A DNA stretch of 64,000 nucleotides from Bacteroidales bacterium (GTDB taxonomy: Bacteria > Bacteroidota > Bacteroidia > Bacteroidales > UBA932): positions 62,001 through 126,000 of the forward strand of contig JAGAIM010000072.1 in assembly GCA_017626555.1 (NCBI GenBank), given 5' to 3'. The notes under the pieces were generated by a model. That model saw nothing but the letters and a program-made list of their open reading frames with translations, was not told the origin of the DNA and made no database searches. Below are positions 2 to 16,732 of the stretch, piece after piece; position 1 is the stretch's first letter, and each line of letters starts with the position of its first letter. Both the position numbers and the translations under genes were made by a program.

Positions 2-2170
2 GGTAAGGAAGACGGTAAGGAAGATGATGGCAACGATAATCAGGGTGACAGCGGAAATGTAGGTGACCTTGAGAAATTCGACTTCCCATATTTCGATGCC
101 TTTCCGGTGGATTGCGGCAATCTTATCGCAGAGGGATCGGATGTCGGTGTGACCATCGAGGTGACCAAGGTGGAAGACCACAACTTCGTGTTTGAACTCC
201 GTCCCGGAGCAATGGTGCAGTCTTTCAAGATGGATGTGTATCCTCTTGCACAACTTTATAACAACCTTCTGAACGACAGGAATTCCGGAGCACTTGCTTC
301 TGCAGAGTCCTGGGCTGTCAATGAGCGTATCCGTGAATACCTCTTCAATGAGACAGGAAGCGGCGGATATGCTTTCTCCGTCAAGGATTTCAGCAATCCG
401 GAGGATTTCCTCCAGATCGAGTATGACTGGATGAACACATCGTATGCTCCTGCTTCAGCCATAGCCATTCCTGACTGCGATTACCTTATTGCTGTGGTCG
501 CTTCCACAAGCGAGGATATAAGCAGTTCGAATCAGGAAGATATCACCCTCTGCTATGTGCATACCACAAGCCAGCCGCTTGTCGGTGATCCTCAGGTGGA
601 GATCGAGGTAAATGCAGGTTACCGTACGTTCGGTGTAAACCATATCCTGAATGCAGATGCTGCGGCAGTATATTTCTACGGATGGCTTCAGAATGAGATC
701 GATGAGTACATCGACACATTCAATGACAGAATGTTCCGTGACTTCGTCCGTACACGTGTGACATCTCCATCTTATGAGAATGACCCTAACAATCCGAACA
801 GCCTCCAGTATTCGGTCAACTATGGTGATGCTGCTGATGCATCCATAATGAGTACTACAGTTGCAGTGGCGGTTGATGTCAATCTGACACCTCAGGAGGA
901 TTACAGCCGTGTCGATTTCCATCTTCAGGAAATACCTGATGATCAGCCGGTTGCCGATCTTGAAATCCGTATTGTCGAGGACAGGGTTGCTGCAGCATAC
1001 TTCGAATTCGATGTAAAGTTCGCAGCCGAGTGCCAGACTTTGTTCTATAATGTATATACCGCTGAATATGTAGAAAGCATAAAGGCTATGAGCGACAAGG
1101 ACAAGAGGGCTCTGGCAAGATCCATCAGGGACGAAGGCTACGGCCATCACAATCCGAACTTCCTTTGGGATGATGATAATGATGTCGCAACAGGCACAGG
1201 TGCTACAGACAGACTTCAGGTATGGGGATCTCTTATGCCAGGTGAAACTTACGTCATCGTATATGTGGGACGCAACGGTTTCGGAACCATTACCGATCTC
1301 AGATATTCGGAGCCTGTGACACTTGACAGCAGAAATCTCGAGTCTTCAGCAGATTGTAAGGTCAAGGATCTCAAACTTGTTCTGGACAAACCGGGCAGGA
1401 CTCAGTTCAGAGGAACCATCACATACGACCCTTCCACTGTATCGATGGTCTATGTGCAGTATATGACGGCAGACAACAATCCTGGACTCGGCCCGGACAG
1501 CCCGTGGAAGGATTGGATCAATTTCATTTTCACTCCTTCATCGACAGGAACAGGCTCTATGGAGTCTTCGAATATCCTTGTCAATGCCTGGACTACCGAG
1601 CCGAGCGGAAGAGACGGCCTGACCTGGACAGGAATGACCCCGGACACTGATTACACTGTATTTCTCTGTGCGGAGGACTTCGACGGTAACATCAGTGAAA
1701 TGCACTTTGCGACAATCAGGACTTCAGAAGTGCAGGTGGGCGCTGATCCGACTGTCATAATGAAACTTCAGCCTGCTGACAATCATCCATACGACTGGAC
1801 AGTGACATATACGATCGACCACGATGTCGAGTACTTCCTCTATTGCTACACCAAGAGTTCGGCAGACCTTGCCAACCATATCCCAGGCCTCAATCAGGGT
1901 CACTTCAACAACATCAAGGGCTCAGGCTTCAGTTATGAGGAGTGGTACAACGGTATCTATGAGTGGGTTGCCGGTGGATTTGAGAACAATGGCGGCGGTA
2001 TGCGCACGGAAAGCGATACCAGCCAGGACTGGGAAGGCAACGAGACTGTAATAGCAGCCTGCATCGCTGTGGGACGCGACACTGACGGTGCGCCGGTTTA
2101 CAAGATGTATCACCTCATCTGCAAGGACGGAAAAGCCCAGACTCTTGAGGAAATTTTCGGAATAGAATAA
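2..2170 (+). CDS. Large surface lipoprotein with fibronectin-like modules, 5' end cut by window
   Basis: The frame is open from the first bases of the window, so the N-terminus, where a signal peptide would be expected, lies off the left edge; the GTG at 107 is only an internal codon. The visible part is 722 residues. It opens with a Gly/Asp/Glu-rich linker (about residues 1-20), as often follows the lipid-anchored Cys of Bacteroidota lipoproteins. The body looks like all-beta modules of about 120-150 residues, each ending in a pattern such as TDYTVFLCAEDFDGNISE (near 1640-1700), and it is rich in Tyr, Trp and Asp. The same pattern recurs in the genes at 2217, 6546 and 10764. No catalytic motif was seen. 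Likely an outer-membrane or surface-exposed binding protein, a role inferred from architecture. It ends 46 bp before the next lipoprotein gene. Confidence 0.75.
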   Translation, partial: GKEDGKEDDGNDNQGDSGNVGDLEKFDFPYFDAFPVDCGNLIAEGSDVGVTIEVTKVEDHNFVFELRPGAMVQSFKMDVYPLAQLYNNLLNDRNSGALASAESWAVNERIREYLFNETGSGGYAFSVKDFSNPEDFLQIEYDWMNTSYAPASAIAIPDCDYLIAVVASTSEDISSSNQEDITLCYVHTTSQPLVGDPQVEIEVNAGYRTFGVNHILNADAAAVYFYGWLQNEIDEYIDTFNDRMFRDFVRTRVTSPSYENDPNNPNSLQYSVNYGDAADASIMSTTVAVAVDVNLTPQEDYSRVDFHLQEIPDDQPVADLEIRIVEDRVAAAYFEFDVKFAAECQTLFYNVYTAEYVESIKAMSDKDKRALARSIRDEGYGHHNPNFLWDDDNDVATGTGATDRLQVWGSLMPGETYVIVYVGRNGFGTITDLRYSEPVTLDSRNLESSADCKVKDLKLVLDKPGRTQFRGTITYDPSTVSMVYVQYMTADNNPGLGPDSPWKDWINFIFTPSSTGTGSMESSNILVNAWTTEPSGRDGLTWTGMTPDTDYTVFLCAEDFDGNISEMHFATIRTSEVQVGADPTVIMKLQPADNHPYDWTVTYTIDHDVEYFLYCYTKSSADLANHIPGLNQGHFNNIKGSGFSYEEWYNGIYEWVAGGFENNGGGMRTESDTSQDWEGNETVIAACIAVGRDTDGAPVYKMYHLICKDGKAQTLEEIFGIE

Positions 2171-2216
2171 ACACTAAGTTTATATTTTTTTTAATTATTA
2201 ACTAAACCCTATTGTT

Positions 2217-5200
2217 ATGAAAAGACAATTTGTAAAAAGCCTATGTGCTTTCTGTACAGGTGTTATGACACTTGTTGCAGCGTCTTCTCTCGTAGTGTCT
2301 TGCTACGATGATTCAGCCCTCAGGGAAGATCTGGAGGAGATGAAGGGAGAACTCAGTGAACTCGATGCACGCCTTCAGGCTATCGAGGCACTCAAGGACC
2401 AACTCACAGCACTCACTGCAAGAGTTGACGCTCTCTACACTCTTCAGTTCCAGGTGTCTGACAACAACGAACTTCAGTACTCTTTCGACGGAAAGGACTG
2501 GAAGGGAACAGGCATCATCCTAGCAGAGGAATGTGATGCACCGTGCGAATGCGTACCGGTTGATCCTTGCTCTTGTCCTGAGGTGTCTCTCGTTGACAAC
2601 GGAGACAGCGTGACCATCAAGGTCGGTGACGCAGAGTTCACAATCGAGAAACCACAGGAGATCGTATTCGAGATCCGTGCAGGTAAACTCTACTTCGAGT
2701 CAGAAGGAACTCAGACTGTTGCTGTCAAGACTGTCGGCATTGAGGATCTTACTGTTATGGCCGCTCCTAAGGGCTGGTGGGCAGAGATCAACTCAGATGG
2801 ACAACTTGTTATCACAGCCCCTGACTATGAGTCAACTCAGGGAGATATTGATTATGAAACTTGGGAGGAGATCCCTGCAGAGAATGCCGCTTCAGGTTAC
2901 GTGAAGGTTCACGCTTGCGGCGCTGACGGTAAGTGTATGGTGGGTAAGGTCGCTGTCGAGGTTGCCGCTCAGGCTCTTATAGTCAAGGCGTACGGTGGAA
3001 ACGCTTACTTTACTCTTGTTGCAAACTATGCTCCTACATTCTATTATGGTATCTCTACAAAGGAGACACTTGAGGCTGATACCAAGGATCTCCTCAAGAG
3101 AATGAACGATGGTGACTGGAACCTCGCAGATGATTATGATAACAACTGGGGTGAATTCTCAGTTACCGAGTCTATCGCTGACCTTCTCGGTGAGGAACCT
3201 AAACTTGGTGAGGAGTATGTTGTTTGGGCAGTGCTGGAAAGTTGGAGTGCTGCTCCATTCGATATGGACGACCTCGTATATGCATACTATTCACCTCTTC
3301 AGGTGAAGATCACAGAAGTAGAGGCTGAAAGAACCGCATATAACGTTACTGTAGATGTAGAGGTTATCGGTGCTGATTCCTATGTGGCTGTCGCAATGCC
3401 TCAGACCTATTGTTCGACCGAGGATGATGTACTTTATCAGCAGGAGATGATGGCTATGGCAATGGCACAGGGAGAGTATTATGGAAAACTCTATAAAGAG
3501 AACTATCACGGTTCTGCTCTTGATATTGCTGCTGAGACTACTTATTCGATGACCGGCAACTATTCTCCTGCATCTGACATTTATGTGTTCGTCCTCCCTC
3601 TTGACGGACGTTCGAATGAGGACTATACTCTTGAAGATGTTGTTGTCGGCAAGTTTGCTACTGCAGGACTTACTTCAGGTGGTTCTGTAAACGTTACAGC
3701 GACTCAGATTTATGAGTATATGGGTACCGGTTATGATGAGAACTGGAATCTTATTGAGAAACTTTTCAAACTTGATCCATATACTGAGGTAGGTGTGGAA
3801 GTAACCCCATCTTCGACTTCAGGCTGGTCTGCATTCTACTATCAGTTCCTTACTGAGGAGCAGTGGGCAGATTATGGCGCTTACGATGAGGATCTCGTTG
3901 ACCTTCTCCTTGAGGGTTGGGGAATGACTCCGACTGACGTTGAAAAGTGGCCTCAATATATTACTGAGAAAGTAAACCCTGCGACAACTGTCCATTTCGT
4001 AGCATTCTTCGTTGACAAGGACGGAAAATACGGTGAACTTGCAAAGGTGAAACTTACTTCTGAGGAACTTAAGAAGGCTGAAATCTCTTGGGTTGAGCCA
4101 TATACTACCAACCTCGTTGACGGTTCGCTTAAGAACACCAAGTCCCTTGAGTTCACTCCTGTGACTGAGGGTGAAGCGGCTTCATACAAATATGTATGGC
4201 AGGCTACAACATATTATAACCCATATAAGGGTAAGGATGATGCCCAGATGGCTGAAGAAATCTTCTTCTCATCTTCTGCAAAGACCGTGACTGCAGCAGA
4301 CCTCGTTGATGGAAAGATTGTTATCGAAGGACACAGATATGGCGACTCGTATTATTTTGCTGTGCTTCCGCTTGATGCTAACGGTGCTCCTGGTAATTCT
4401 GCGGCAATCCTTGAGTACACTTGCGATTTCTCTCTGGACAATGTAATCACAGAGGGTGCTGATTACACAGCAACAGAGCCTGGGATTGTCATCAACCTTC
4501 CTGAGTGGTCTGAATTATATACAAATGGAGACTGGGGCGAAGGATCTTACTATGGATGGGAAGACCAGACTGCCTGGGGATACGGATACCGCTTCTATTA
4601 TGAGTTCAACTATTCAGTTGCTCCGAAGGAAGGTACTGAGGTAAGCGCTATGCTCGTAAATGCAGATGACTGGACACTCGGTTCAGATGCCAAGACCAGG
4701 GCTTCTCAGTTGCTTCAGGAATCATTCGGTACTCCGTTCACTACTACCGTGGCTGAGGATGCCCTTTATACTTACTTCCAAAATTATAATGACAAGCCAG
4801 CACCGGAAGTATATCTTATGGTCGTTTGGTCAGATGCTGCAGGAAACTACTATTACAAAGAGTATGCACTCCAGTCTGAACTCCAGAAGTATGCAGACAA
4901 ACTTTCCGAGACCCTTGGCCTTGAAAAGCCTGAACTTCCTACTCCTGACGGAAAGCAGTGGTCATTCAACTGGACTGCAATGGGTATGGGTGATCTGATG
5001 GCAGTCCTTGATTTCGGTGTATCAATGGAAGGTCAGTGCCTCGTAGCCATAGATCCATCTGTTCTGGGCGCTCCAGAGGGATCTCCATACCAGATCTTCA
5101 ATGCGATTGGTTATGAATTCGAGCCAGCAGATGCTACATCCGGTAAACTCACCCTTATTACAGTCAATATGTACGGTGAGGAACTTACTCAGGAATTCAA

Positions 5201-5324
5201 GTACTATGATCTCACAGACTATAGTTGCTACTTTGAATTCGGTGAGGATTCATTCATACTTCAGGATGTTGACGGACTTCTTACAGAAGTAGAGATCGAT
5301 ATGTCTGGCGGAATAATGCAGTAA
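2217..5324 (+). CDS. DUF4988-type coiled-coil lipoprotein with fibronectin-like repeats
   Basis: Protein of 1035 residues. Residues 1-29 form a lipoprotein signal ending in a lipobox (LVVSC, Cys29). YDDSALRE and a heptad-like coiled coil (about 32-75) follow, the hallmark of the Bacteroidota DUF4988 / PL29-N-terminal family. A short beta domain contains QYSFDGKDWKGTG, then five Cys within residues 106-120 (C106, C110, C112, C118, C120). The rest is a series of Tyr-rich beta modules with endings such as TTVHFVAFFVDKDGKYGEL. No catalytic residues are recognisable. The coiled coil could act as a stalk lifting the modules off the membrane (inference). A strong intrinsic terminator follows, so the gene may end a transcript shared with the gene at 2. 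The gene at 10764 is a paralogue in architecture. Confidence 0.85.
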   Translation: MKRQFVKSLCAFCTGVMTLVAASSLVVSCYDDSALREDLEEMKGELSELDARLQAIEALKDQLTALTARVDALYTLQFQVSDNNELQYSFDGKDWKGTGIILAEECDAPCECVPVDPCSCPEVSLVDNGDSVTIKVGDAEFTIEKPQEIVFEIRAGKLYFESEGTQTVAVKTVGIEDLTVMAAPKGWWAEINSDGQLVITAPDYESTQGDIDYETWEEIPAENAASGYVKVHACGADGKCMVGKVAVEVAAQALIVKAYGGNAYFTLVANYAPTFYYGISTKETLEADTKDLLKRMNDGDWNLADDYDNNWGEFSVTESIADLLGEEPKLGEEYVVWAVLESWSAAPFDMDDLVYAYYSPLQVKITEVEAERTAYNVTVDVEVIGADSYVAVAMPQTYCSTEDDVLYQQEMMAMAMAQGEYYGKLYKENYHGSALDIAAETTYSMTGNYSPASDIYVFVLPLDGRSNEDYTLEDVVVGKFATAGLTSGGSVNVTATQIYEYMGTGYDENWNLIEKLFKLDPYTEVGVEVTPSSTSGWSAFYYQFLTEEQWADYGAYDEDLVDLLLEGWGMTPTDVEKWPQYITEKVNPATTVHFVAFFVDKDGKYGELAKVKLTSEELKKAEISWVEPYTTNLVDGSLKNTKSLEFTPVTEGEAASYKYVWQATTYYNPYKGKDDAQMAEEIFFSSSAKTVTAADLVDGKIVIEGHRYGDSYYFAVLPLDANGAPGNSAAILEYTCDFSLDNVITEGADYTATEPGIVINLPEWSELYTNGDWGEGSYYGWEDQTAWGYGYRFYYEFNYSVAPKEGTEVSAMLVNADDWTLGSDAKTRASQLLQESFGTPFTTTVAEDALYTYFQNYNDKPAPEVYLMVVWSDAAGNYYYKEYALQSELQKYADKLSETLGLEKPELPTPDGKQWSFNWTAMGMGDLMAVLDFGVSMEGQCLVAIDPSVLGAPEGSPYQIFNAIGYEFEPADATSGKLTLITVNMYGEELTQEFKYYDLTDYSCYFEFGEDSFILQDVDGLLTEVEIDMSGGIMQ

Positions 5325-5354
5325 TAGTCAGTACATATCCTACTTATATCAGAC

Positions 5355-5378
5355 CCGGCGGCAACGTCGGTTTTTTTT
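5355..5378 (+). terminator. Intrinsic terminator after lipoprotein gene
   Basis: CCGGCG and CGTCGG form a 6-bp stem (one G-T pair) closed by a GCAA tetraloop and followed by eight T. It lies 30 bp after the stop codon at 5324. This is a textbook rho-independent terminator. Confidence 0.9.
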
Positions 5379-5407
5379 GTTTTTTGCCTTGATTTGATTT
5401 ATATTTG
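5376..5407 (+). promoter_or_regulatory. Bacteroidetes-type promoter for the 5428 operon
   Basis: TTTG (5376-5379), a 20-bp spacer and TATATTTG (5400-5407) match the phylum-specific -33/-7 consensus TTTG-N19/20-TAnnTTTG. The -33 box sits in the T-tract of the preceding terminator. The ATG at 5428 lies 21 bp downstream. Confidence 0.75.
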
Positions 5408-5427
5408 TAAGTTATATATTAAAGACT

Positions 5428-6546
5428 ATGAGGCAAATATTCAGACTGATTATCTGTTGTACCGCTGCTGTTATACTTTGCGGATGCGACAGAGAACGTG
5501 AACAGGAAAAAGCCCATCCGGTGATTCCCGGCGAGATAACTCTTACGGCAACTTCGGAGCAGATGAGAAGTGACGGACAGGATGTCGTGGAGTTCACTGT
5601 CAATGTGACAGATGAACAGGGTAAGGTGCATAATGTCACTGAGTATGCGGAGATTTATCTCGACCTTGAAAAGACTCCTTTGACATCGCCATCGTTCACG
5701 ACCGATAAGGACGGCGAGTATCTTTTCTATGCCGTGTATGGACTTGCGCTATCCAATGAACTTGTCATTACTGCATTCAACGATATGCCGGAACTGCCGG
5801 CTGATCCGCAGGAGGATAACGTGTCTTTCCGTCACAGGATGCTTCTGGTGCAGCATACAGGCGCGACCTGTGTGAATTGTCCGAGAATGATGGAGAGCCT
5901 CAAGGCCTTGGCTGAGGATGATGCGTACAATGATCTTTATCATCACGCAGCATCTCATTCATACAATGATGGGGAGTCGGATGCCGCCTATTCCGAGGCT
6001 GCCCGCAATGTGTCGATTGCATATAATACGTCAGGGCTGTATCCGATGCTGACATTCAATCTCACTTCCACAGCAGTCGGGACGGATCTTTCGGAGATAA
6101 AGTCTCAGATAGATGCGTTGAAGAAGAATACTGCGGCTGTCGGCATTGCTGCTTCCGCAAAGATTTCCGGGGATGATGTGCTTGTCAACATTGAGGTCAA
6201 GGCTGCTCAGGAGAATGATTACCGTGTTGCTGCGTGGCTTCTGGAGGATGATATCTATTCTCTTCAGGCTGGTATGTCCGAGTCCTGGCACAATACGCAC
6301 AATAATGCGCTGAGGTATGCGGCCGGTACGGTGTCACAGTTCTCTTTCGCAGGTGAAAAACTGGGGCATCTTTCGTCTGGTCAGAAGGCTGGCAAGGTGT
6401 TCGTCCTTCCTTTGGAGGAGACTTGGGTGGCTGAGAATTGCGAGGTGCTCGTGTTTGTGACTGCTCCAGACGGGAACGGAAATTATGATTTGGTAAACTG
6501 TGTCCTCTGTCCGGTGGGTGAGGCGGTAACATACGATTACAAGTGA
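5428..6546 (+). CDS. Omp28-like lipoprotein with thioredoxin-like region
   Basis: Protein of 372 residues with a lipoprotein signal (VILCGC, Cys20). An N-terminal Ig-like segment (about 30-125) precedes a thioredoxin-fold segment carrying GATCVNCPRMMESLKAL, the pattern of the Omp28-related outer-membrane protein family first known from Porphyromonas gingivalis. The CVNC pair sits where thioredoxins have CxxC, but redox activity is not established for this family. It is the first gene after the promoter at 5376-5407 and its TGA shares one base with the ATG of the next gene, so translational coupling is likely. Probably lipid-anchored to the outer membrane. Family call fairly sure, function unknown. 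Confidence 0.8.
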   Translation: MRQIFRLIICCTAAVILCGCDREREQEKAHPVIPGEITLTATSEQMRSDGQDVVEFTVNVTDEQGKVHNVTEYAEIYLDLEKTPLTSPSFTTDKDGEYLFYAVYGLALSNELVITAFNDMPELPADPQEDNVSFRHRMLLVQHTGATCVNCPRMMESLKALAEDDAYNDLYHHAASHSYNDGESDAAYSEAARNVSIAYNTSGLYPMLTFNLTSTAVGTDLSEIKSQIDALKKNTAAVGIAASAKISGDDVLVNIEVKAAQENDYRVAAWLLEDDIYSLQAGMSESWHNTHNNALRYAAGTVSQFSFAGEKLGHLSSGQKAGKVFVLPLEETWVAENCEVLVFVTAPDGNGNYDLVNCVLCPVGEAVTYDYK

Positions 6547-8885
6547 TGAAGAAGATATTTGCATATTTGGCAGCATTGGTTTTTGCTGCTGTTGCCGTGT
6601 CCTGCGTGGATGAGCAGGCACTTCAGGATCCGGAACTCAATCTTTCTGCAACACAGGTTGAAATCGGTGCTGAGGGAGGAAAGTTCAAGATTGTTTATGA
6701 ACTTTCAGGAGTGTCGGACGGCGTTTCTCTCGAGGTAATCAACGATGCCGGATGGCTTGAAGTCAGTACGGCCAGGGCAAGAATAATCGAGGTGTCTGCA
6801 CAAAAGAATGATACCGGGGAGGAAAGGACTGCGCAGTTCACTGTGAGGTGCAAGGGTGTGGAGGACGTATCTGTGTCAGTGGTGCAGAAGGCTTGGCAGG
6901 ATCCGATCACGCTCACGGTGCTGGGTACCGAGGCTACAAAGGTCATCTTCTCTGTCAAGACTTTGAGTGACGATTTCACGTGGGTCGGACAGGTCGTGGG
7001 CAAGGAATGGTTCGACGATATGGAGTCTGATGAGCAGATATTCCAGGAAGACCTTTCATATTATTCGTATCAGGCTGCTGATCAGGGCGTTTCGCTTCAG
7101 GAATATCTCAAGACGGTGATGAACAAGGGTTCGTTCGAAAATCTTGAGTACAAGGGATTGGATCCGAGTTCGGAATATGTGGTGTATGTGTATGGAATTT
7201 CTACAGAAGGTGAGAGGACCACTGATATATATTCTGCTCCGGCTGTGACGCAGCCGCCTTACGAGGGACCGATAACTTTTGATATCAATGTGACTGAAGA
7301 GAATAATGTGATGGATATCACGGTGACTCCGGATCACGACGGTGTATATTACTATTGGAACCTGATGGATAAGGCTACGTACGATCAGTACGCTGCCGGA
7401 CACGGAAATGATCCTGTGGCGGTTTTCCAGGCCTTTGTTGACTGGGATATACAGGATCTGATCGATTACGAGTACCTGACCGGCCGTGCCGAGTATTACG
7501 AGTGGTACAGCGACATCAATCAGGTGAACAGCCAGTTCGAGTGTATGGCATTGACTGATTATATCGTTTTTGCCTGCAAGTGGGATGAGGATTGTCATTT
7601 TACCGGTGAAGCGACATACGTGTGGCATACTTCGGGCGATGTGGCTCCTTCCGACAATGTGATAACCGTGACGGTGGGCGATGATGTCGATCAGTCCTCT
7701 TTCTTTGTTGACGTACAGACAACCAATAACGATCCGTACGTTATGATAGCAGAGCCTTCACGCTTTATGGAAGGAATGAATGATGAACAGATCTATGCTC
7801 ATCTTATGGAGGACTACGGCACCTGGGGTATTCTCAATTTCGTGTATGAGGGAAGTCTTTCCGGACGTATGACAGGTCTGGAGGCTGATACGGAATATAC
7901 TATGGTCGTGTTCGGATACAAGGCTGGAAAACAGACTACTCCGATGCAGAAGTTTACCGTGAGGACTGCACCTGCCGGTCCTGCGGAGGATTGCAGGTTC
8001 GAATTCGTTCTGAATGAGGCCGGATCCAATTCTCTTGATATCACCGTGACTCCTACTGATGCCGCGCATTTCTATTATTGGTATGTATATACGACGGATG
8101 TGACTGCTGATCAGGTGAAGCAGAATATTACCGACCTGATCAATAATTCATACTATGGAGATATGTATGAGTTCAGTTACTGGGAACTTTCACAGGGCAG
8201 GTCTGAGGGCAAGATATCCTTCCTTGCTCCTGAGACTGAGTACAGGGTGGCTGCGGTCGTTATGGATGAGCAGACAGGTGAGTTCCTGGCGGATGTCATA
8301 TTCAGCGAGCCATTCAGCACTCTTGAACCTGATTATGCTGATATAACGATTACGGCATCATACGACAAGTTCTATGACGGAGACGATCTGTATGCCCTCA
8401 ATCCTGATGCTGGAGCGCAGTACAGAGGATATGCAATGGTGCCGGTGAGCATAAGCATCGATGGAGAATACAAGTCGTATTATTATACGATGATAGAATA
8501 TGTGACCGGCCTGGAGGATCCTGATGTGTATCCTGATGCCGCACTTTATGAGACTCTTGTTTATTACGGAGTGTATTATTCGGAGACTGTGAATTTCCGT
8601 GCTCCGTGGAACAAGACGGTTCTGCTGGCTGCGATGGCTATAGATAACGAGGGACGATACAGCAGGGTGTTCCGTCAGAAATGTCAGTTCAGGAAATACA
8701 ATGCTTCCGATATCGAGGATCTCCTGACCAGATCGGTTATGGCTTCAGAGTCTGAACCGCCTGTCCCATACGCGCCGGCCGCAAAGGATATTGTGGTCAG
8801 CAAGAGCCGTAATGAAGGAGACTCCCGTTTCAGTAACGCCAATATGGCAAAGATCAGGAAAGATAACAGGTTGAGGAAATTTTAA
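6546..8885 (+). CDS. BACON-domain lipoprotein with Tyr-rich beta modules
   Basis: The ATG at 6546 is preferred over GTG at 6543 because it gives MKKIFAYL, a clean signal with lipobox AVSC (Cys20), and a TGATG overlap with the gene before. Product 779 residues. About residues 32-115 look like a BACON domain (ISAQKN-like strand and QKAW ending). Roughly five Tyr/Trp-rich modules follow, each with a strand of the form TxYxVxxxGxxxxG or, at the end, KTVLLAAMAIDNEGRYSR. The C-terminal 45 residues form a basic, Pro- and Asn-rich tail without predicted strands. BACON domains are often found in Bacteroidota surface proteins that bind glycan or mucin. No enzymatic motif is visible. Probably a structural or binding partner of its neighbours. 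Confidence 0.8.
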   Translation: MKKIFAYLAALVFAAVAVSCVDEQALQDPELNLSATQVEIGAEGGKFKIVYELSGVSDGVSLEVINDAGWLEVSTARARIIEVSAQKNDTGEERTAQFTVRCKGVEDVSVSVVQKAWQDPITLTVLGTEATKVIFSVKTLSDDFTWVGQVVGKEWFDDMESDEQIFQEDLSYYSYQAADQGVSLQEYLKTVMNKGSFENLEYKGLDPSSEYVVYVYGISTEGERTTDIYSAPAVTQPPYEGPITFDINVTEENNVMDITVTPDHDGVYYYWNLMDKATYDQYAAGHGNDPVAVFQAFVDWDIQDLIDYEYLTGRAEYYEWYSDINQVNSQFECMALTDYIVFACKWDEDCHFTGEATYVWHTSGDVAPSDNVITVTVGDDVDQSSFFVDVQTTNNDPYVMIAEPSRFMEGMNDEQIYAHLMEDYGTWGILNFVYEGSLSGRMTGLEADTEYTMVVFGYKAGKQTTPMQKFTVRTAPAGPAEDCRFEFVLNEAGSNSLDITVTPTDAAHFYYWYVYTTDVTADQVKQNITDLINNSYYGDMYEFSYWELSQGRSEGKISFLAPETEYRVAAVVMDEQTGEFLADVIFSEPFSTLEPDYADITITASYDKFYDGDDLYALNPDAGAQYRGYAMVPVSISIDGEYKSYYYTMIEYVTGLEDPDVYPDAALYETLVYYGVYYSETVNFRAPWNKTVLLAAMAIDNEGRYSRVFRQKCQFRKYNASDIEDLLTRSVMASESEPPVPYAPAAKDIVVSKSRNEGDSRFSNANMAKIRKDNRLRKF

Positions 8886-8890
8886 ATAGT

Positions 8891-10750
8891 ATGGTAAGAA
8901 GATATATTACAATCATCGTTCTGGCGCTTTTTTGCTTTGTGTCCTGTGATAAGGATGTCGATGTGATCCCTACGCCTCCTGAGGAGGAGACACCGTCCGG
9001 ACAGGATCCTCCTGTGGAGGAACCGGAATCAGGCGTTGCCAATGTGTCTTATCCCGACAAGGCTGTGTCTTACAGGGGGGCTACTGTTTCGGTCAAGTTC
9101 GATGCTGAGGCTGCGTGGACGGCTTCTCTCGAATTGAAGTCTGTGCCCGAACTTGAGTGGGCTGCAGTGAGTGCGAGTACCACTTCGGGTGATGCGAAGA
9201 AAGGATGCAGTGTAAGAGTTGCATTTGAGGAAAACAAGTCGTCAGAAGAAAGGATTGCCGAACTGTGGGTGACGGTGGAAGGCTTCGAGCCTGAGTGCAT
9301 TGCGACCTTGACGCAGGCTGCGGACGGAGCCGGTGCCGATGCTGGGATCAACAAGGCTCTCAATACCTATATGCACGATATCCTTAAGGAAGACTACCTC
9401 TTTGCGGATGCATATAATGCACAGGAGGTGGATCTGACAGTCTCCTACAATGACTTCCTTTCGAAACATCTTCTTTCATTGGGCGATGTGAATGTTGCTG
9501 ACGGAGGATACAGGAAGGCAAGTCAGGAGAATGCCGGACAGAGGTTCATATATACTAATCTCGTGGAGATTGTCACCACGAAGGCGGCTCAGACCGGAGG
9601 CTTGGGATTCGGCCCGTTCATTTCCACAGCCTTGTCCGCCAATGGTTCTGATATGGCCATAGCACCGTCATTCGTGCGCCGTGGATCTCCGGCGGAAGGT
9701 GCCGGCCTCAGAAGGGGAGACCTTATATATGCCGTCAATGGTACACGTCTTACCACTTCCAACTACCGTGCATATATGACTTCCCTCTATATGAATCCGT
9801 CAGGTGTGTATAACTTCTCATTCCTGCGATTCGAAGCAGACGGGAATGGAGGCTACAGCCTCAATTCATATGATTCCGGATCCGCTGCATCCGGTGTACA
9901 TATTTATGATCCGGTCCTTCACGCATCTGTTATGACTGATCCTGACAATCCTGCCACAAAGATCGGTTATCTTGTGTATGAGTCCTTCGATCTCAATTCT
10001 CAGGATATTCTTGAAGAGACCATAAATGACTTCATCGAGGCAGGCATCAACGATCTCATTCTCGATCTTCGTTTCAATGCGGGTGGAGCAGTGGCTCAGA
10101 GCAGATGGCTTTCGGGATGTATCGCTGGTCCGGCCAACGGTTCCAAGACCTTTACTAAGGTGGTGTATAATGACGGCGCGACAGAAAACTGGACATTCGA
10201 TTACGGATATGACAACGATACCGACAACCTCGGCAAGCCTTCATATCTCGGTCTTTCCAGACTTTATGTGATCTGTTCCTACAATACTGCATCGGCAGCA
10301 GAACTGGTGATAAACTCGCTCCGAGGCGTTGATTTTCCTGTGACTCTTATCGGAGGTACCACGGAGGGCAAGAATGTGGGTATGGAGGTGTCGGAGAAAG
10401 TGTATAACGGACGACGTTTCCAGTTCTCTCCGGTGACTTTCTGGGTCAGGAATGCAAAGGATTTCGGAGACTATCCTGACGGTATAAGGCCGGATGAGTT
10501 TGTCAATAATGACAATGGAAGTTATGATGATGATGCAGATAATGTATTCCCGTATTCTTTCTCTGATTGGGGAAATATGGACTACAACATTGCCCTCCAG
10601 TGGGCATATTGCAGTATCACGGGCAAGTCTAGGTGGACTCATACCCCAGTGCGTTCGATGATGTTTGATGTTCCGGTTCCTGTCGATTGTCAGCCGATGG
10701 AACTGATGCACAACCGATACGGCAATCTTATGTTTGAAAATAATCAATAA
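8891..10750 (+). CDS. S41 family peptidase lipoprotein (BACON-PDZ-protease)
   Basis: Protein of 619 residues. A lipoprotein signal (CFVSC, Cys19) is followed by a Pro/Glu-rich linker and a BACON-like beta domain (about 55-145). A PDZ domain follows (RRGSPAEGAGLRRGDLIYAV, about 258-277), then a tail-specific protease domain. The nucleophile is likely Ser468 in NTASAAE and the general base Lys494 in TEGKNVG, the S41 Ser-Lys dyad. LILDLRFNAGG is the typical strand before the active site. It starts 5 bp after the previous gene and ends 13 bp before the next, so it sits inside the lipoprotein operon. It may process a neighbouring lipoprotein or a host protein (inference). Family call is sure. Confidence 0.9.
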   Translation: MVRRYITIIVLALFCFVSCDKDVDVIPTPPEEETPSGQDPPVEEPESGVANVSYPDKAVSYRGATVSVKFDAEAAWTASLELKSVPELEWAAVSASTTSGDAKKGCSVRVAFEENKSSEERIAELWVTVEGFEPECIATLTQAADGAGADAGINKALNTYMHDILKEDYLFADAYNAQEVDLTVSYNDFLSKHLLSLGDVNVADGGYRKASQENAGQRFIYTNLVEIVTTKAAQTGGLGFGPFISTALSANGSDMAIAPSFVRRGSPAEGAGLRRGDLIYAVNGTRLTTSNYRAYMTSLYMNPSGVYNFSFLRFEADGNGGYSLNSYDSGSAASGVHIYDPVLHASVMTDPDNPATKIGYLVYESFDLNSQDILEETINDFIEAGINDLILDLRFNAGGAVAQSRWLSGCIAGPANGSKTFTKVVYNDGATENWTFDYGYDNDTDNLGKPSYLGLSRLYVICSYNTASAAELVINSLRGVDFPVTLIGGTTEGKNVGMEVSEKVYNGRRFQFSPVTFWVRNAKDFGDYPDGIRPDEFVNNDNGSYDDDADNVFPYSFSDWGNMDYNIALQWAYCSITGKSRWTHTPVRSMMFDVPVPVDCQPMELMHNRYGNLMFENNQ

Positions 10751-10763
10751 TCCAATAAGACTT

Positions 10764-13727
10764 ATGAGAACTTTAAAAAAACTATTATCCTGCTGTCTTA
10801 TGGGATCTATGCTGTTTGCGGTCTCTTGTGAGACTGTGGTCGAGCAGTACATAGAGAATCCTTACGATGACAGTGGACTTAAAGAGGAAATCGATGGTGT
10901 CAAGGATCAACTTGACGAATTGTCGGGCAGAATCGATGGTATCATTGAGACGATTTACGATCTGCAGGAGAAATTGAACGATGAGATCGATGCTCTTGAA
11001 TCTATGCTTTCAGGCAAACTGCTGATTTCAGATGTTTCGACAGATGCTTCCAACGGTGTCACAACCGTTACACTTTCTGACGGTACGAAGTTGTATCTTC
11101 TTCCTGAGACAGATCTTCGCTCGTTCGTTACATACGTGACACTCAGCGATGGCATTGCATATTGGGCATATATAGATGCCGAAGGAAAGACGGTTCTGTT
11201 CCTTGATGAGAATAAGGCTCCGGTTCCGGTGATAGGTGATGTTCCGGAAGTGATTGTCAAGGACGGGGAGACCTGGCTTGTGATCGGTGGTGTGGAATAT
11301 CCTATATCGGGTAATTCGGTATTCTCTGATTATGAGGTTATTACAGATGAACTTACAGGTGATGTATATGCCGTTACGTTCACTTTCGGTGAGGGTATGT
11401 CATTTACTGTGACTGTTGATGGCGCAGCGGGATTCCACTTTGTGAAGCCTTCAGGATGGTCAACTGTGGTGATTTCCGACTATTATGTCGCTAACGGTCT
11501 TACAGAGCGTGTGCAGATTGATGCAAGAGGTGTGGTTGATTATGTCCTTCAGATTCCTGACGGTTGGAGAGTCAAGGAGTATGAAGATGTATTTATGGGT
11601 TCAATGTACTTCGATATTACTGCTCCGTCAGAGGAACTGGTGAAAAGCGGAGTGGCTGCTGCTGATGGTGACCTGAAAGTCGTTGCTGTTCTTGAAGGAG
11701 GAAAGGCTACAGTGGCTAAACTGTATCTGTCAACTTCTCCTTTCAAGGAGTTCAATGTGTCGATGGGCTACGCCGATGTGACTATGTACAATGGCCTTCA
11801 GAAGTTCGTTTATGGCGTGTGCCTCGAGTCTGAGTATGATGAGGATGCCATTTTCTCAGTAGCGGAGGGACTTCTTACTGCATACGACTATCCGGCTGGT
11901 TATGGCGTGGCAGACTATGATCTGGAAGGTCTCGCTCTCAGCGATATCGCCGGCGCTGAACTTTTACCAGGAGAAAAATATGTGTTCTGGGCTATTCCTG
12001 CTTTGTATTATATGACTGATTATGATGCTGGCTACTACCTTAAGAAGGGTACTCTCGTCAAGAAGGAAGTCGAGTATTCTTCAGTACTTTTTGAGGTAGG
12101 GGATGAAAGTTTCCGTGATGCTGTGCTTACAATGGATCTCAAGGGAGTGAATGCATATTATACTGCTTTGGTTCCGAAGGCTGACTTTATGGTAGAGGAT
12201 GTGGCATATTGCCTCAATATCCCTGAATACTATGAGGCAATGACCACTCCGATGTCATACGAAGGCTCTGTTTTCTCATTCTATAATGTAGAGCCGGAGC
12301 AGGCTACAGAGTATGTTGCCTGGATTGCAGTGGCAGAGGAAGGCAAGACATATACTGAGGCTGATGTTGTGGTTCGTGAGTTCTCTACTCTCAACCTGAC
12401 AGCAGGAGGAAATGTGTCTGTTGCTGTAAATGAGATTACTCCTTCTGTATTTGATGTAGATGTTACGCTCTATGCTACCGGTGCCGAGAATATCTACTAT
12501 GCATACCTTACTGCTTCAAATGCAAAGAAATATGCTGACAATGAGGCCAGGGCTATGTATCTGTTCGAGAACGGATTTTCTGTAAAGGGTGAGTCTGCTC
12601 AGACTAAGGTGTCGGATTTCATTACCAGTACAAAGCCTGAGACAACTTACGTTCTCTTTGCCGTTGCATCTGATGCTGACGGAAAATATGGAGATGTGCT
12701 TGTTTATGAATGCACCACAACTGAGATTGTTTATAACGACCTTAAAGTTGAGATGGAGATTGTGACCAATGATCCTAACAATGTGGTGCTGAGCATTTCA
12801 GCGAAAAATTCTACCGGGTTCGTTTACTGGCTTGGAAAGACTTCCGACAACACTTGGAAGAGTTCCAACTATATGGGCGGCAAGGTAGAGACAGCACAGG
12901 AATATATCTATCTCAACCAGAATCAGTACAGGGTTACGTCAGTTATGGAGAAATACCCGATTGAAAACGGGCAGATCGTTATGACCGATCTCGCAATGGA
13001 TGAAGATTATGTTATCGTTGCTATGGCAAAGGATAAGGATGGCGGTCTTTCCAAGGCTACGGAACTCAGATTCGTGCCACGCGCCGTTGCATTGGGAACA
13101 TTGGTGCTTGCTACCGATCCTAAGTGGGCTGACGCAAAGCCTTCGGTGGATTGGATTGAGGAGCGTTTCCAGGCTGCCACAGGCCAGATGTCGGGAGCGT
13201 ATGGTTTCAATATAACCATCCCTTCAGGATTTACTGCATACGTTCTTGCCGGAACTGACAGTTATATTAACGACGGCGATGCGACTCTTGTACTGACTCC
13301 GGAGGAAAAGATCATAAAGATAATCCAGTATGTCGATAGGCCGCGTGACTGGCATCTTACGGTTTCAGAAGACTGGGTGTGGCCTCATATAGGTTATGTC
13401 CATTATCATAGCCACCACGGTGCACCTCTCTATGGTAATTCGATAATATGGGCTTCACAGGAATATCACGATTCAAGGTGTGACTGCGGAGGCAATTATG
13501 TGGCAGTGATGGAAATGCAGGGACACGAGGTGGAAGTGAACCATCTGATCAACATCAACGATGGCAAACCTGTTGAGTTCAGACAGCCTCAGGCAATCGC
13601 AAGCACATCAGAAGTGATCGATAAGGTCTTTGTCGTTTGTCAGGATCTCGATGGCAACTGCTATGAGCCATTCGTTATAGATGTTCCGTTGGAACTCTTC
13701 CAGAATGCAGGAGGACGAGACGAGTAA
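10764..13727 (+). CDS. Second DUF4988-like coiled-coil lipoprotein
   Basis: The ATG at 10764 is chosen because the upstream TTG at 10734 lies inside the S41 gene and adds ten residues before the signal; from 10764 the signal ends in a lipobox (FAVSC, Cys22). Product 987 residues. ENPYDDSGLKEEIDGVKDQL begins a coiled coil, matching the YDDSALRE start of the 2217 protein. Next come two short beta repeats (VTLSDGTKLYLLPETD, VTLSDGIAYWAYIDAEGK), then several Tyr-rich modules including TTYVLFAVASDADGKYGDV, nearly the same as in the 2217 protein. The C-terminal part (about 860-987) is His-rich around HIGYVHYHSHHG and has a CDCGG, possible metal ligands. Last gene of the operon. Confidence 0.85.
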   Translation: MRTLKKLLSCCLMGSMLFAVSCETVVEQYIENPYDDSGLKEEIDGVKDQLDELSGRIDGIIETIYDLQEKLNDEIDALESMLSGKLLISDVSTDASNGVTTVTLSDGTKLYLLPETDLRSFVTYVTLSDGIAYWAYIDAEGKTVLFLDENKAPVPVIGDVPEVIVKDGETWLVIGGVEYPISGNSVFSDYEVITDELTGDVYAVTFTFGEGMSFTVTVDGAAGFHFVKPSGWSTVVISDYYVANGLTERVQIDARGVVDYVLQIPDGWRVKEYEDVFMGSMYFDITAPSEELVKSGVAAADGDLKVVAVLEGGKATVAKLYLSTSPFKEFNVSMGYADVTMYNGLQKFVYGVCLESEYDEDAIFSVAEGLLTAYDYPAGYGVADYDLEGLALSDIAGAELLPGEKYVFWAIPALYYMTDYDAGYYLKKGTLVKKEVEYSSVLFEVGDESFRDAVLTMDLKGVNAYYTALVPKADFMVEDVAYCLNIPEYYEAMTTPMSYEGSVFSFYNVEPEQATEYVAWIAVAEEGKTYTEADVVVREFSTLNLTAGGNVSVAVNEITPSVFDVDVTLYATGAENIYYAYLTASNAKKYADNEARAMYLFENGFSVKGESAQTKVSDFITSTKPETTYVLFAVASDADGKYGDVLVYECTTTEIVYNDLKVEMEIVTNDPNNVVLSISAKNSTGFVYWLGKTSDNTWKSSNYMGGKVETAQEYIYLNQNQYRVTSVMEKYPIENGQIVMTDLAMDEDYVIVAMAKDKDGGLSKATELRFVPRAVALGTLVLATDPKWADAKPSVDWIEERFQAATGQMSGAYGFNITIPSGFTAYVLAGTDSYINDGDATLVLTPEEKIIKIIQYVDRPRDWHLTVSEDWVWPHIGYVHYHSHHGAPLYGNSIIWASQEYHDSRCDCGGNYVAVMEMQGHEVEVNHLININDGKPVEFRQPQAIASTSEVIDKVFVVCQDLDGNCYEPFVIDVPLELFQNAGGRDE

Positions 13728-13855: not shown

Positions 13856-16732
13856 CTATAGCGTCCTCTTGATCTCTTCGATTGTGTATGCCTCTACGAC
13901 ATCACCGATCTTGATGTCATTGTAGCCCTGGATGTTAAGACCGCAGTCCTGACCCATAGCCACTTCCTTGACATCATCCTTGAATCTCTTGAGTGAGCCA
14001 AGTTCACCGGTATAGATTACGATACCGTCGCGGATTACGCGCACTTTCGCAGATCTGACGAGTTTGCCTTCGCGGACGATACATCCGGCGATGGTTCCGA
14101 CCTTGGAAATCTTGAATGTCTCCTGAACTTCTGCAGTTGCAGTGACGATTTCTTTCTGCTCAGGCTCGAGCATACCTTCGATACCGCTCTTAAGTTCGTT
14201 GATACAGTCGTAGATCACAGAGTACAGACGTATCTCGATCTCTTCCTTCTCTGCAAGTTTGCGTGCTGAAGGCATAGGACGTACCTGGAAACCGATGATG
14301 ATGGCATCAGAAGCCGCTGCAAGCAGGATATCCGACTCTGAGATTGCACCCACGGCCTTGTGGATCACATTCACGCGTACTTCCTCTGTTGAAAGTTTGA
14401 TGATAGAGTCCGAGAGCGCCTCGATAGAACCGTCCACGTCTCCCTTGACGATGACATTGAGTTCCTTGAAGTTTCCGATGGCGATACGACGTCCGATCTC
14501 CTCGAGAGTCATATGCTTCTGTGTCTTGATACCCTGGATACGGATCAACTGTTCGCGTTTGTTGGCGATATCCTTTGCTTCCTTCTCGTCAGCCATAATG
14601 TTGAATGTCTCACCTGCGGTAGGGGCTCCGTTAAGACCGAGGACTGAAACTGGTGTTGAAGGACCGGCCTCCTCAACCTTCTGTCCACGCTCATTGAACA
14701 TTGCCTTGACGCGTCCGGTGTAGCATCCTGAGAGCATCACATCTCCCACTCTCATCGTACCGTTCTGTACGAGGATGGTTGCGAGATATCCGCGACCCTT
14801 GTCAAGTGATGACTCGATGACTGCACCTGTAGCCCTGCGGTTAGGGTTGGCCTTGAGATCGAGCATCTCTGCCTCAAGAAGAACCTTTTCGAGAAGAAGA
14901 TCGACATTGATACCTTTCTTTGCGGAAATTTCCTGGCACTGATATTTTCCTCCCCAGTCTTCCACGAGAATGTTCATATTGGAGAGTTGCTCGCGTATCT
15001 TGTCAGGGTTTGCACCCGGCTTGTCAATCTTGTTGATTGCGAAAATCATCGGTACGCCGGCAGCCTGTGCGTGATTGATAGCCTCGACTGTCTGCGGCAT
15101 TATGCAGTCGTCTGCAGCCACGATGATGATGGCGACGTCAGTCATCTTTGCACCTCGCGCACGCATCGCGGTGAACGCCTCGTGACCAGGAGTGTCGAGG
15201 AATGTTATCCTCTGTCCGTCAGGGAGTTTCACGTTGTATGCTCCGATGTGCTGGGTGATACCACCGGCCTCACCGGCAATGACATTCGCTTTACGGATAT
15301 AGTCCAGAAGGGAAGTCTTACCGTGATCGACGTGACCCATCACTGTGATCACCGGTGGACGTGGGAGAAGGTCCTCTTCGGTATCCTCACCCTCACCCTG
15401 TGCAATTGCGTCTGTGAGGTTTGCTGTAACGAATTCAACTTCATATCCGAATTCTTCGGCAACGAGAACGAGTGTCTCTGCGTCGAGACGCTGGTTGATG
15501 GATACCATCATACCGAGGCTCATACAAGCGCCGATGACCTTGGTCACAGGAGTATTGTTCATCAGGGTCGCAAGGTCGTTTACGGTCACGAACTCTGTCA
15601 CCTTCAGCACCTTCTGCTCGAGTTGCTGCATCTCCATCTCTTCCAGCATCCTCTGTGAGGCTGCCTCTCTCTTCTCCTTTCTGTGCTTTGCTCCGAAGTT
15701 ACCCTTCTTGTTTTCGTTCATTCGGGCGTATGTCTCCTTGATCTGCTTCTGGATCTCCTTCTGCATCTCTTCCTGCTCGGCCTCAGTCATAGGCTTGAAT
15801 TTGTCACCGCCTCTGTCGCGACGATTCTTCTTTCCATTCTTGCCCTGCTGCTCGCTCGGACGCTGCTGCTTCTGACCATTGTTCTGCTGGCCCTGGCCTC
15901 CCTTGTTCTTATCTTTCTTTACCTTATTGTCTGCCTCGACCTTAGTGACATCCACTTTCTGGCTGCCTTCCTTGCCGATTCTCTCTCTCTTCTTCTTTTT
16001 CTTCTTCTTGTCGAACTGGGACAGGTCGATCTTGTCAACCACCTTCGGGCCGGCGAGACGCTCTACTTCGATCTTCACTTCGCGTGGCTGAGGCTTTTCT
16101 TCTACCTTCGGCTCTTCCTCCTTCCCGTTCTCTGTTGCGACAGGAGTTTCCGGCTCAGCCGGCATTGCAGGCTCTACCGCTGGGGTCTGGGCGGTCTGAT
16201 CTTCTGCAACCGTTTCCGGCTCGGTCTTCACCTCCTTTGCTGGAGACTTTTTCTTGTCAAACTGGGAGAGGTCGATCTTGTCAACGATCTTGATGCCTCC
16301 TTCCTTGTTTTCCACTTTTGCCGCTTCCTTGACTTCGGGAACAACTGCCTCAGGCTTTGCTTCCTGGACGTGCTCCTCCTGCTGAGGCTCAGCAGGCTTT
16401 TCAACTGCCTGTTCAACCTTGGCAGGCTCGCTGTTGAGTACGTTGCTCTTGATGACTACTTCCTTCTCAGGTACTTCCTCGTCTTCACGACCGGCCTTTT
16501 TCTTGGAGCCCATCTCGATGATCTCCTTGAGTTTGATAGTCACTTTTTCCGAGTCTTTCTTAAGTTTGAGGTCTTCGCCGAACTTTGCCTCTATAGCCGG
16601 AAGATACTCATCCGATACCTTTGCATTCGGATTCATCTCCACGTTGGCTCCCTTCTCGTTGAGAAAATCAACGAGTCTGGCAAGTCCGATGCTGAATTGC
16701 TTTGTAAGTTTGCTTAATCTGATTTCTGCCAT
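13856..16732 (-). CDS. infB: Translation initiation factor IF-2
   Basis: Protein of 958 residues, in the range for Bacteroidota IF-2. The N-terminal helical domain ([16 protein letters not shown]) is followed by a long charged Lys/Glu/Gln-rich linker (about 90-370) holding two copies of [13 protein letters not shown], a phylum feature. An IF2_N domain then leads to the GTPase domain with P-loop GHVDHGKTS (about 464-472) and NKID (about 565-568), then domains II, III and the fMet-tRNA-binding C2 domain. It positions initiator tRNA on the 30S subunit with GTP hydrolysis. Third gene of rimP-nusA-infB, starting 22 bp after nusA. A plus-strand open frame of 344 codons over the linker is a composition shadow. 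Confidence 0.98.

Follow-up and report, generated by a model that had tools for sequence, protein, structure and literature searches.

The DNA analysed here, referred to as the window, is a stretch of 64,000 nucleotides from a Bacteroidales bacterium. Positions 2-13727 are filled by six open reading frames (ORFs) on the + strand, genes 1 to 6 (Table 1), separated by gaps of 46, 103, −4, 5 and −17 bp. ORFs were called with a greedy longest-ORF script and start positions are approximate; the true start of gene 6 is probably 10764. The original prediction, made from the sequence of the window, described six co-directional, closely spaced lipoprotein genes that include an Omp28-like protein and an S41 protease. 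These points were borne out. The gaps span −17 to +103 bp, gene 3 matches Omp28 (PF11551; 90.2 bits, above the cut-off of 34.9), and gene 5 matches S41 (PF03572; E 4.9e-17, 62.4 bits, cut-off 24). Lipobox-type signals, judged by eye, are present on all six products, with acidic residues mostly soon after the cysteine. The observation is real and beyond chance. It is incomplete in extent because the operon continues upstream of the window, and the redox partners escaped the original prediction because most of them lie outside the window.

We observed that folP, a gene for a TlpA-like thioredoxin (161 amino acids (aa), 5.6 kb ahead of the window), a DUF6029 gene and three Omp28 genes lie upstream of gene 1 on the same contig and strand (locus L032, G000:C4:48001-68000; window position 1 is L032:14001). 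Gene 1 is whole in this contig (L032:13828 or 13876-16170). The DUF6029 protein matches PF19494 with E 9.3e-177 (589.3 bits, cut-off 27), and PDB sequence searches returned nothing credible for it. Past folP lie a MauE-like gene on the opposite strand and a further Omp28 gene with a gene for a 910-aa protein. The six window genes form the 3′ section of a larger operon-like run, which starts with the TlpA-like gene and presumably makes one transcript.

Table 1. Features of the gene run, in window positions unless the own-contig locus L032 is named. FN3, fibronectin type III.
Feature	Coordinates	Strand	Description or basis
MauE-like protein	L032:5447-6652	opposite to folP	PF07291 E 9.5e-17
Gene 1	2..2170	+	large lipoprotein, 5′ part beyond window edge
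Gene 1 FN3-like repeats	about 470-892, 1223-1570, 1625-2095	+	self- and cross-profile alignments
Gene 2	2217..5324	+	lipoprotein, N-terminal coiled coil by eye, long paralogue of gene 6
Gene 3	5428..6546	+	Omp28-family lipoprotein, PF11551 E 1.7e-25
CxxC dithiol C148 to C151 of gene 3	5869..5880	+	invariant in 5/5 own-genome Omp28 paralogues
Pro206 of gene 3	6043..6045	+	invariant in 5/5 own-genome Omp28 paralogues
Gene 4	6543..8885	+	lipoprotein, BACON and tandem FN3-like modules
BACON domain of gene 4	6735..6890	+	Pfam
Tandem FN3-like modules of gene 4	6900..8330	+	AlphaFold model residues 119-595
Gene 5	8891..10750	+	lipoprotein S41 peptidase, BACON-like N-domain and PDZ
Ser468 of gene 5	10292..10294	+	conserved in 27/27 aligned
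Lys494 of gene 5	10370..10372	+	conserved in 27/27 aligned
Gene 6	10734..13727	+	DUF4988-type lipoprotein (PF16378 E 8.8e-11), tandem FN3-like modules
DUF4988 region of gene 6	10902..11282	+	Pfam
Best-defined FN3-like module of gene 6	12402..12728	+	model residues 547-655

The TlpA-DUF6029-Omp28 arrangement recurs far beyond this contig. PF19494 was found in 165 of 295 Bacteroidales genomes, in 75 of 250 genomes of the same genus, and in 81 of 296 genomes of a phylum sample (79 above the cut-off). We examined 40 loci from the order and 37 from the phylum sample, both hand-picked for spread (over families in the order; in the phylum sample the weakest-matching family, f135, is represented once, by L239), together with 59 of 60 loci from the genus; L158 was left out as no DUF6029 gene was called there. 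In 34/40 order loci TlpA lay no more than two genes upstream of DUF6029 and Omp28 no more than two genes downstream; TlpA was missing in five loci and Omp28 in one. Both partners were present at 22/37 phylum loci (TlpA only, 7; Omp28 only, 6; neither, 2) and at 46/59 genus loci (TlpA only, 3; Omp28 only, 10; neither, 0). None of 52 pattern-matching viral-contig stretches encoded a DUF6029 relative. Two genus loci (L131, L136) each carry two DUF6029 genes, the first followed directly by gene 6-like lipoproteins and not by Omp28. DUF6029 appeared as two adjoining matches in G568:C49:13213-14930, G529:C1 and G393:C1; such splits may reflect interrupted genes, errors of assembly or gaps in the alignment.

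All three partners carry conserved cysteine pairs. The motif C..G[VIL]C was found within the last 60 residues of DUF6029 in 145/145 matches (144/144 distinct proteins, two of them shorter than 450 aa), compared to 0/336 other proteins of 400-700 aa from the same loci. An alignment of 99 DUF6029 proteins has exactly two invariant cysteines, those of this motif, which is also retained in remote relatives. Many of the proteins have no further cysteine (22/40 order, 18/37 phylum and 13/59 genus). The motif immediately precedes the last predicted strand, a place that in the usual barrel topology is presumably the last extracellular loop; for these two reasons the pair is expected at the outer mouth. 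A C..C motif was present in TlpA in 38/38 order, 50/50 genus and 29/29 phylum proteins, and in Omp28 in 47/47, 113/118 and 32/33, respectively. Among the remaining genes of these loci with products of 130-650 aa, the control rate was 89/913. Four of the five genus Omp28 proteins lacking the motif lie at a locus end; the fifth, in L173 (175 aa), does not.

Gene 3, the fourth Omp28 gene of the run, consists of an Ig-like N-domain (weak matches), a thioredoxin-like domain and an Omp28 domain; it scores 50.8 bits against NCBIfam lipoprot_Omp28, under the cut-off of 150. It has the CxxC and the proline of a thioredoxin-fold dithiol protein, as do all five Omp28 proteins of its genome, and Pro206 probably occupies the thioredoxin cis-proline place. 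A profile of these five proteins gave as its best PDB match HBP35 (5y1a, E 7.5e-8), and also matched Omp28 (2r2c, E 1.8e-4).

One natural fusion joins two of the partners. A 667-aa protein of the phylum sample (L247:4530, genome G830) carries TlpA at residues 1-164 (CVPC) and DUF6029 at 163-667 (C645, C650), with only one further cysteine, C5, in the signal region. Its frequency is 1/145, and it is a more direct link between TlpA and DUF6029 than their proximity in the genome.

We propose, tentatively and with somewhat less than even confidence, that the TlpA-DUF6029-Omp28 core serves as a thiol-disulfide relay spanning the outer membrane, extended at this locus for reductive protein foraging. 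An inner-membrane carrier would feed TlpA, which is presumably periplasmic (lipobox in 2/35 order and 2/29 phylum proteins). TlpA would hand electrons to the invariant cysteine pair close to the C-terminus of the DUF6029 barrel, which we place in the outer membrane (lipobox in 4/40 order and 5/37 phylum proteins). That pair would pass them on to the CxxC of Omp28, predicted to lie on the cell surface (lipobox in 24/39 order and 10/19 phylum proteins). We favour export of electrons to surface thioredoxins because HBP35 of Porphyromonas gingivalis has a cell-surface form and requires C48/C51 for insulin reduction, as stated in passages of PMC2907840.

The same cysteines could have a humbler role. 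TlpA might only make or break disulfides of DUF6029 and Omp28 during assembly. DUF6029 would then be a porin that perhaps exports polysaccharide, and the lipoproteins would be the cargo of a generic surface operon. DUF6029 has been related to polysaccharide secretion and likened by HHpred to Wzi-type barrels in passages of PMC9603273, the one paper naming DUF6029 among the open-licence PMC papers searched. The cysteine pair flanks a GG turn and could be a plain hairpin disulfide, and the fusion fits this structural role as well as it fits the relay. However, Omp28 keeps the thioredoxin CxxC and proline, which a passive client would not need. We judge this explanation improbable overall.

The relay would need an inner-membrane source of electrons, which in certain lineages would be DsbD. 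A gene of the DsbD type is part of the locus in 3/40 order (L076, L082, L101), 1/37 phylum (L240) and 2/59 genus loci (L152, L153), directly after Omp28 in L101 and directly after DUF6029 in L240. L257-L259, selected for having DsbD close to DUF6029, were left out of these counts. Given one to four DsbD_TM matches in each genome and stretches of ~18 kb scanned, we estimate the chance expectation at well under one in 40, shared descent being ignored. DsbD_TM matches were present in 289 of 295 order genomes. At the locus studied here the source is perhaps the MauE-like protein beside folP. Its C12, C108 and C110 are conserved in 13/13 aligned relatives, and it is a possible candidate for an inner-membrane thiol carrier substituting for DsbD.

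The proposed extension concerns the window genes themselves. Genes 1, 2, 4 and 6 were originally predicted to share one beta module, and we compared modules by profile-profile scores against 30 column shuffles per pair. Modules of ~110-130 aa in genes 1, 4 and 6 scored mutually above the null (gene 1-gene 6, 68.1 vs a shuffle maximum of 20.9; gene 1-gene 4, 61.1 vs 22.2; gene 4-gene 6, 52.7 vs 25.1). Gene 2 did not score above it with gene 1 (25.0 vs 24.6, a tie) or gene 4 (28.9 vs 30.8). It enters the set by long homology to gene 6 (hhalign E 4.2e-47; 270.2 vs 26.5 with the gene 2 N-terminus removed). Self-profile alignment found internal repeats in genes 1, 4 and 6 and none in gene 2. The repeat strings quoted in the original prediction are present inside the genes that start at the coordinates quoted for them and not at those coordinates themselves (e.g. 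residue 607 of gene 1, residue 637 of gene 6).

Structure prediction supported a shared fold in both proteins modelled. AlphaFold models of genes 6 and 4 contain the same strands-helices-strands unit in tandem; the gene 6 model has a mean pLDDT of 69.7, with residues ~430-860 mostly >80. Judged by these models, the module is an FN3 beta-sandwich with a helical insert, an ordinary fold; structure comparison ruled out a novel one. Foldseek results were read from single-domain matches, as whole-model ranking gave long multi-domain proteins and global superpositions were uninformative. Among the four genes the Pfam fn3 profile matched gene 4 alone, at 14.8 bits, below the cut-off of 25; the module is therefore an FN3-like fold and not a Pfam fn3 member. 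Gene 1 has no Pfam match and gene 2 no credible one, and PDB sequence searches gave no match for gene 2 and nothing credible for gene 6. Genes 4 and 5 have an N-terminal region in common (hhalign 95.6%). Gene 5 matches Pfam S41 with PDZ, its BACON match being weak, and we take Ser468 and Lys494 to be the catalytic Ser-Lys dyad of an S41 protease.

We assessed how this extension is distributed in the genus. Orthologues of gene 1 were present in 26 of 61 genus genomes with an examined locus, in all 26 cases together with DUF6029 and Omp28 at that locus. At least three Omp28 genes were found in 22/26 gene 1 loci, compared to 1/35 loci lacking gene 1. Minimum counts at the 26 gene 1 loci were 11 for gene 2, 4 for gene 4, 16 for gene 6-like genes, 12 for S41, 10 for SusC and 8 for SusD; the 35 other loci gave 0, 1, 2, 0, 4 and 2, respectively. 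All genes but gene 1 are undercounted here, as the stretches end at 20 kb, and because of this limit the genome studied here itself shows no gene 4, S41 or gene 6 in the tally. Neighbours are kept in relatives, and the exact six-gene unit is not: L034 and L035 have the order Omp28-gene 1-gene 6-S41 without genes 2, 3 and 4, gene 6 preceding S41, and L127 has gene 2 without genes 3 and 4. These loci rule out the six-gene order as a conserved unit. Of the two findings that would have spoken against the original prediction, modules that fail to align and neighbours that are not conserved, neither came true.

Fourteen named relatives of the gene 5 protease (63-80% identical) come from metagenome-assembled genomes (MAGs) that have the title Bacteroidales bacterium; 11 of these titles mention a ruminant hindgut site (roe deer, water buffalo, sheep, goat). 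In 10/14 (L118-L123, L125, L126, L128, L129) a SusC-SusD-DUF4843-PKD_2-TlpA (about 450 aa)-DUF4595 set lies directly upstream of S41 and gene 6. Its members were identified by Pfam on L118 alone; in the other loci they were recognised by their size, their order and a match to the TlpA profile. The end of the locus truncates SusC in L120 and possibly in L123. In L118 the set (L118:422-9907) is flanked by gene 4 and the S41 protease. L124 contains the part from SusD onward, then inverted gene 4 and Omp28 genes before S41; the inverted gene 4-like and Omp28 genes (L124:6475 and its neighbour) are a sign of local rearrangement. The set is absent from L116, L117 and L127 within the DNA covered. SusC and SusD in relatives lie upstream of S41, or downstream of S41 or gene 6, and L130, L133 and L134 pass from gene 6 directly to SusC with no S41. 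Neither SusC nor SusD was recognised in the six window genes or among those labelled in L032. Near DUF6029, Omp28-type proteins with a length of ~460-490 aa (L147, L154, L162, L165 and others) also match the S41 profile; that profile carries a BACON-like N-domain, and the matches possibly reflect this shared N-domain only.

Under the relay reading, the three or more Omp28 copies would enlarge the surface end in the genus. The FN3/BACON lipoproteins would hold substrate, the S41 peptidase would cut it in cooperation with the thioredoxins, and SusC/SusD, in many relatives, would import the peptides. The overall job would most likely be surface reduction of disulfide-bonded proteins, followed by cutting and peptide import. 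Gene order, folds, cysteine pairs, the recurring neighbourhood and the fusion are shown by the data; which way electrons flow, where each part sits, what the substrate is and whether protease and thioredoxins act together are inferred.

The original prediction suggested instead that the genes may build one surface complex or adhesin, with maturation by the S41 protease. A binding role would suit lipoproteins that carry tandem FN3 and BACON modules, and S41 adjoins the lipoprotein genes. On the other hand, the loci that run from gene 6 to SusC do so without S41, and no cleavage or anchoring signals were noticed, though none were searched for. An adhesin also leaves TlpA, DUF6029 and the several CxxC Omp28 proteins unexplained, and none of our results suggested adhesion or maturation by the protease. 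We do not favour this model and consider it very unlikely.

The same genes could also serve uptake of a ligand such as heme, a metal or a thiol compound, with DUF6029 as a channel, Omp28 as its lid, and cysteines for ligand binding or release. Nutrient capture, as in SusCD-type systems, would then be the role of S41, SusCD and the FN3/BACON lipoproteins. This is consistent with SusC in 10/26 and SusD in 8/26 gene 1 genomes, and with the hemin-binding thioredoxin HBP35 as the best PDB match of the Omp28 profile; a passage of PMC2907840 reports that an HBP35 deletion mutant grows slowly without hemin. However, the triplet in the 40 order loci usually occurs without genes labelled as such a system, SusC/SusD profiles not having been tallied there. 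Uptake is, in our view, an unlikely explanation.

Several observations weigh against the relay. DsbD beside the core is rare, and the counts ignore shared descent. DsbD_TM (PF02683) has no match in the genome studied here (a 95% complete MAG), and four of the six order genomes without DsbD_TM carry DUF6029 (G000, G037, G104, G135). DUF6029 occurs in just 75/250 genus genomes and is therefore dispensable, and 15/37 phylum loci are without TlpA, Omp28 or both. With the cysteine pair at the outer mouth, contact with periplasmic TlpA would require the loop to dip into the barrel lumen or a small thiol to act as a shuttle, and the pair could be a plain structural disulfide. The lipobox test, a crude one, was positive for Omp28 in just the fractions given above. 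SusC is present in 4/35 genus loci without gene 1 compared to 10/26 with it. One published finding speaks for the foraging reading: Paraprevotella protein 00502, annotated as Omp28-related and carrying Ig-like domains, recruits trypsin and causes its breakdown with no protease activity detected, according to passages of PMC9477747. Reduction as the explanation of that breakdown would be speculation. Against this use of it, the Omp28 label comes from automatic annotation, and the words 'thioredoxin' and 'disulfide' occur 0 times in the main text of that paper.

We know of no established route by which reducing power could get to the cell surface in anaerobic Bacteroidota that lack outer-membrane cytochromes, and of no function for DUF6029 or Omp28. 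If the relay is correct, it would offer a named barrel with an invariant cysteine pair available for mutation, a function for both families, and a possible redox mechanism by which gut commensals dismantle disulfide-rich proteins such as trypsin. The broader claim, that the triplet is a widespread Bacteroidota machine passing reducing equivalents through the outer membrane to a surface reductase, with the window genes as its protein-foraging extension, we regard as doubtful. Even if the relay is wrong, the triplet with its lipoprotein, protease and SusCD extension is a directly testable genetic unit.

The chromosomal setting was compared across 12 genomes of the genus, of which G023 has a DUF6029 match and the other 11 have none. 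folP and nusA lie on one contig in five of them (G013, G016, G017, G019, G008), about 3 to 15 kb apart and in differing relative orientation. The nusA match contains one in-frame TAG in G016, G017, G018 and G008 (TAA in G003); this may be alignment past the gene's stop.

No description of the TlpA-DUF6029-Omp28 set was found among top-ranked open-licence PMC papers. Its parts resemble several known systems. The 28 kDa Omp28 protein (PDB 2r2c; PF11551) has the same C-terminal Omp28 domain, but comes with no operon context in the papers found. HBP35 (PDB 5y1a) is a Bacteroidales thioredoxin with a surface form and a profile relative of Omp28, but is exported by the Por (type IX) system, according to PMC3120885. 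The trypsin-degrading 00502/00509 system of Paraprevotella resembles our locus in that its substrate, a protein, is captured by a surface protein annotated as Omp28 and bearing Ig-like domains; it differs in being type IX dependent, and redox is not considered in the portions of PMC9477747 that describe it. SusCD-type utilisomes, as outlined in PMC7618045, combine surface lipoproteins with a SusCD importer, as do relatives of the window locus, whereas the run on the contig studied here has no SusC/SusD among its genes.

Two further systems are comparable in function. The CcdA-Etrx1/2-MsrAB2 pathway of Streptococcus pneumoniae, as its abstract (PMC3914529) presents it, also joins a membrane carrier to surface thioredoxin-fold lipoproteins acting outside the cell; it is Gram-positive, with no outer membrane to cross and no barrel. 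Shewanella oneidensis performs extracellular disulfide reduction, also with an outer membrane to cross, and needs DsbD, but it uses Mtr proteins, and DsbD acts in cytochrome assembly (abstract of PMC10986466). As far as these abstracts show, neither pathway uses a thiol barrel. Surface thioredoxin pathways and extracellular disulfide reduction are already known; a relay through a barrel would be categorically new, a possibility we hold to be rather unlikely.

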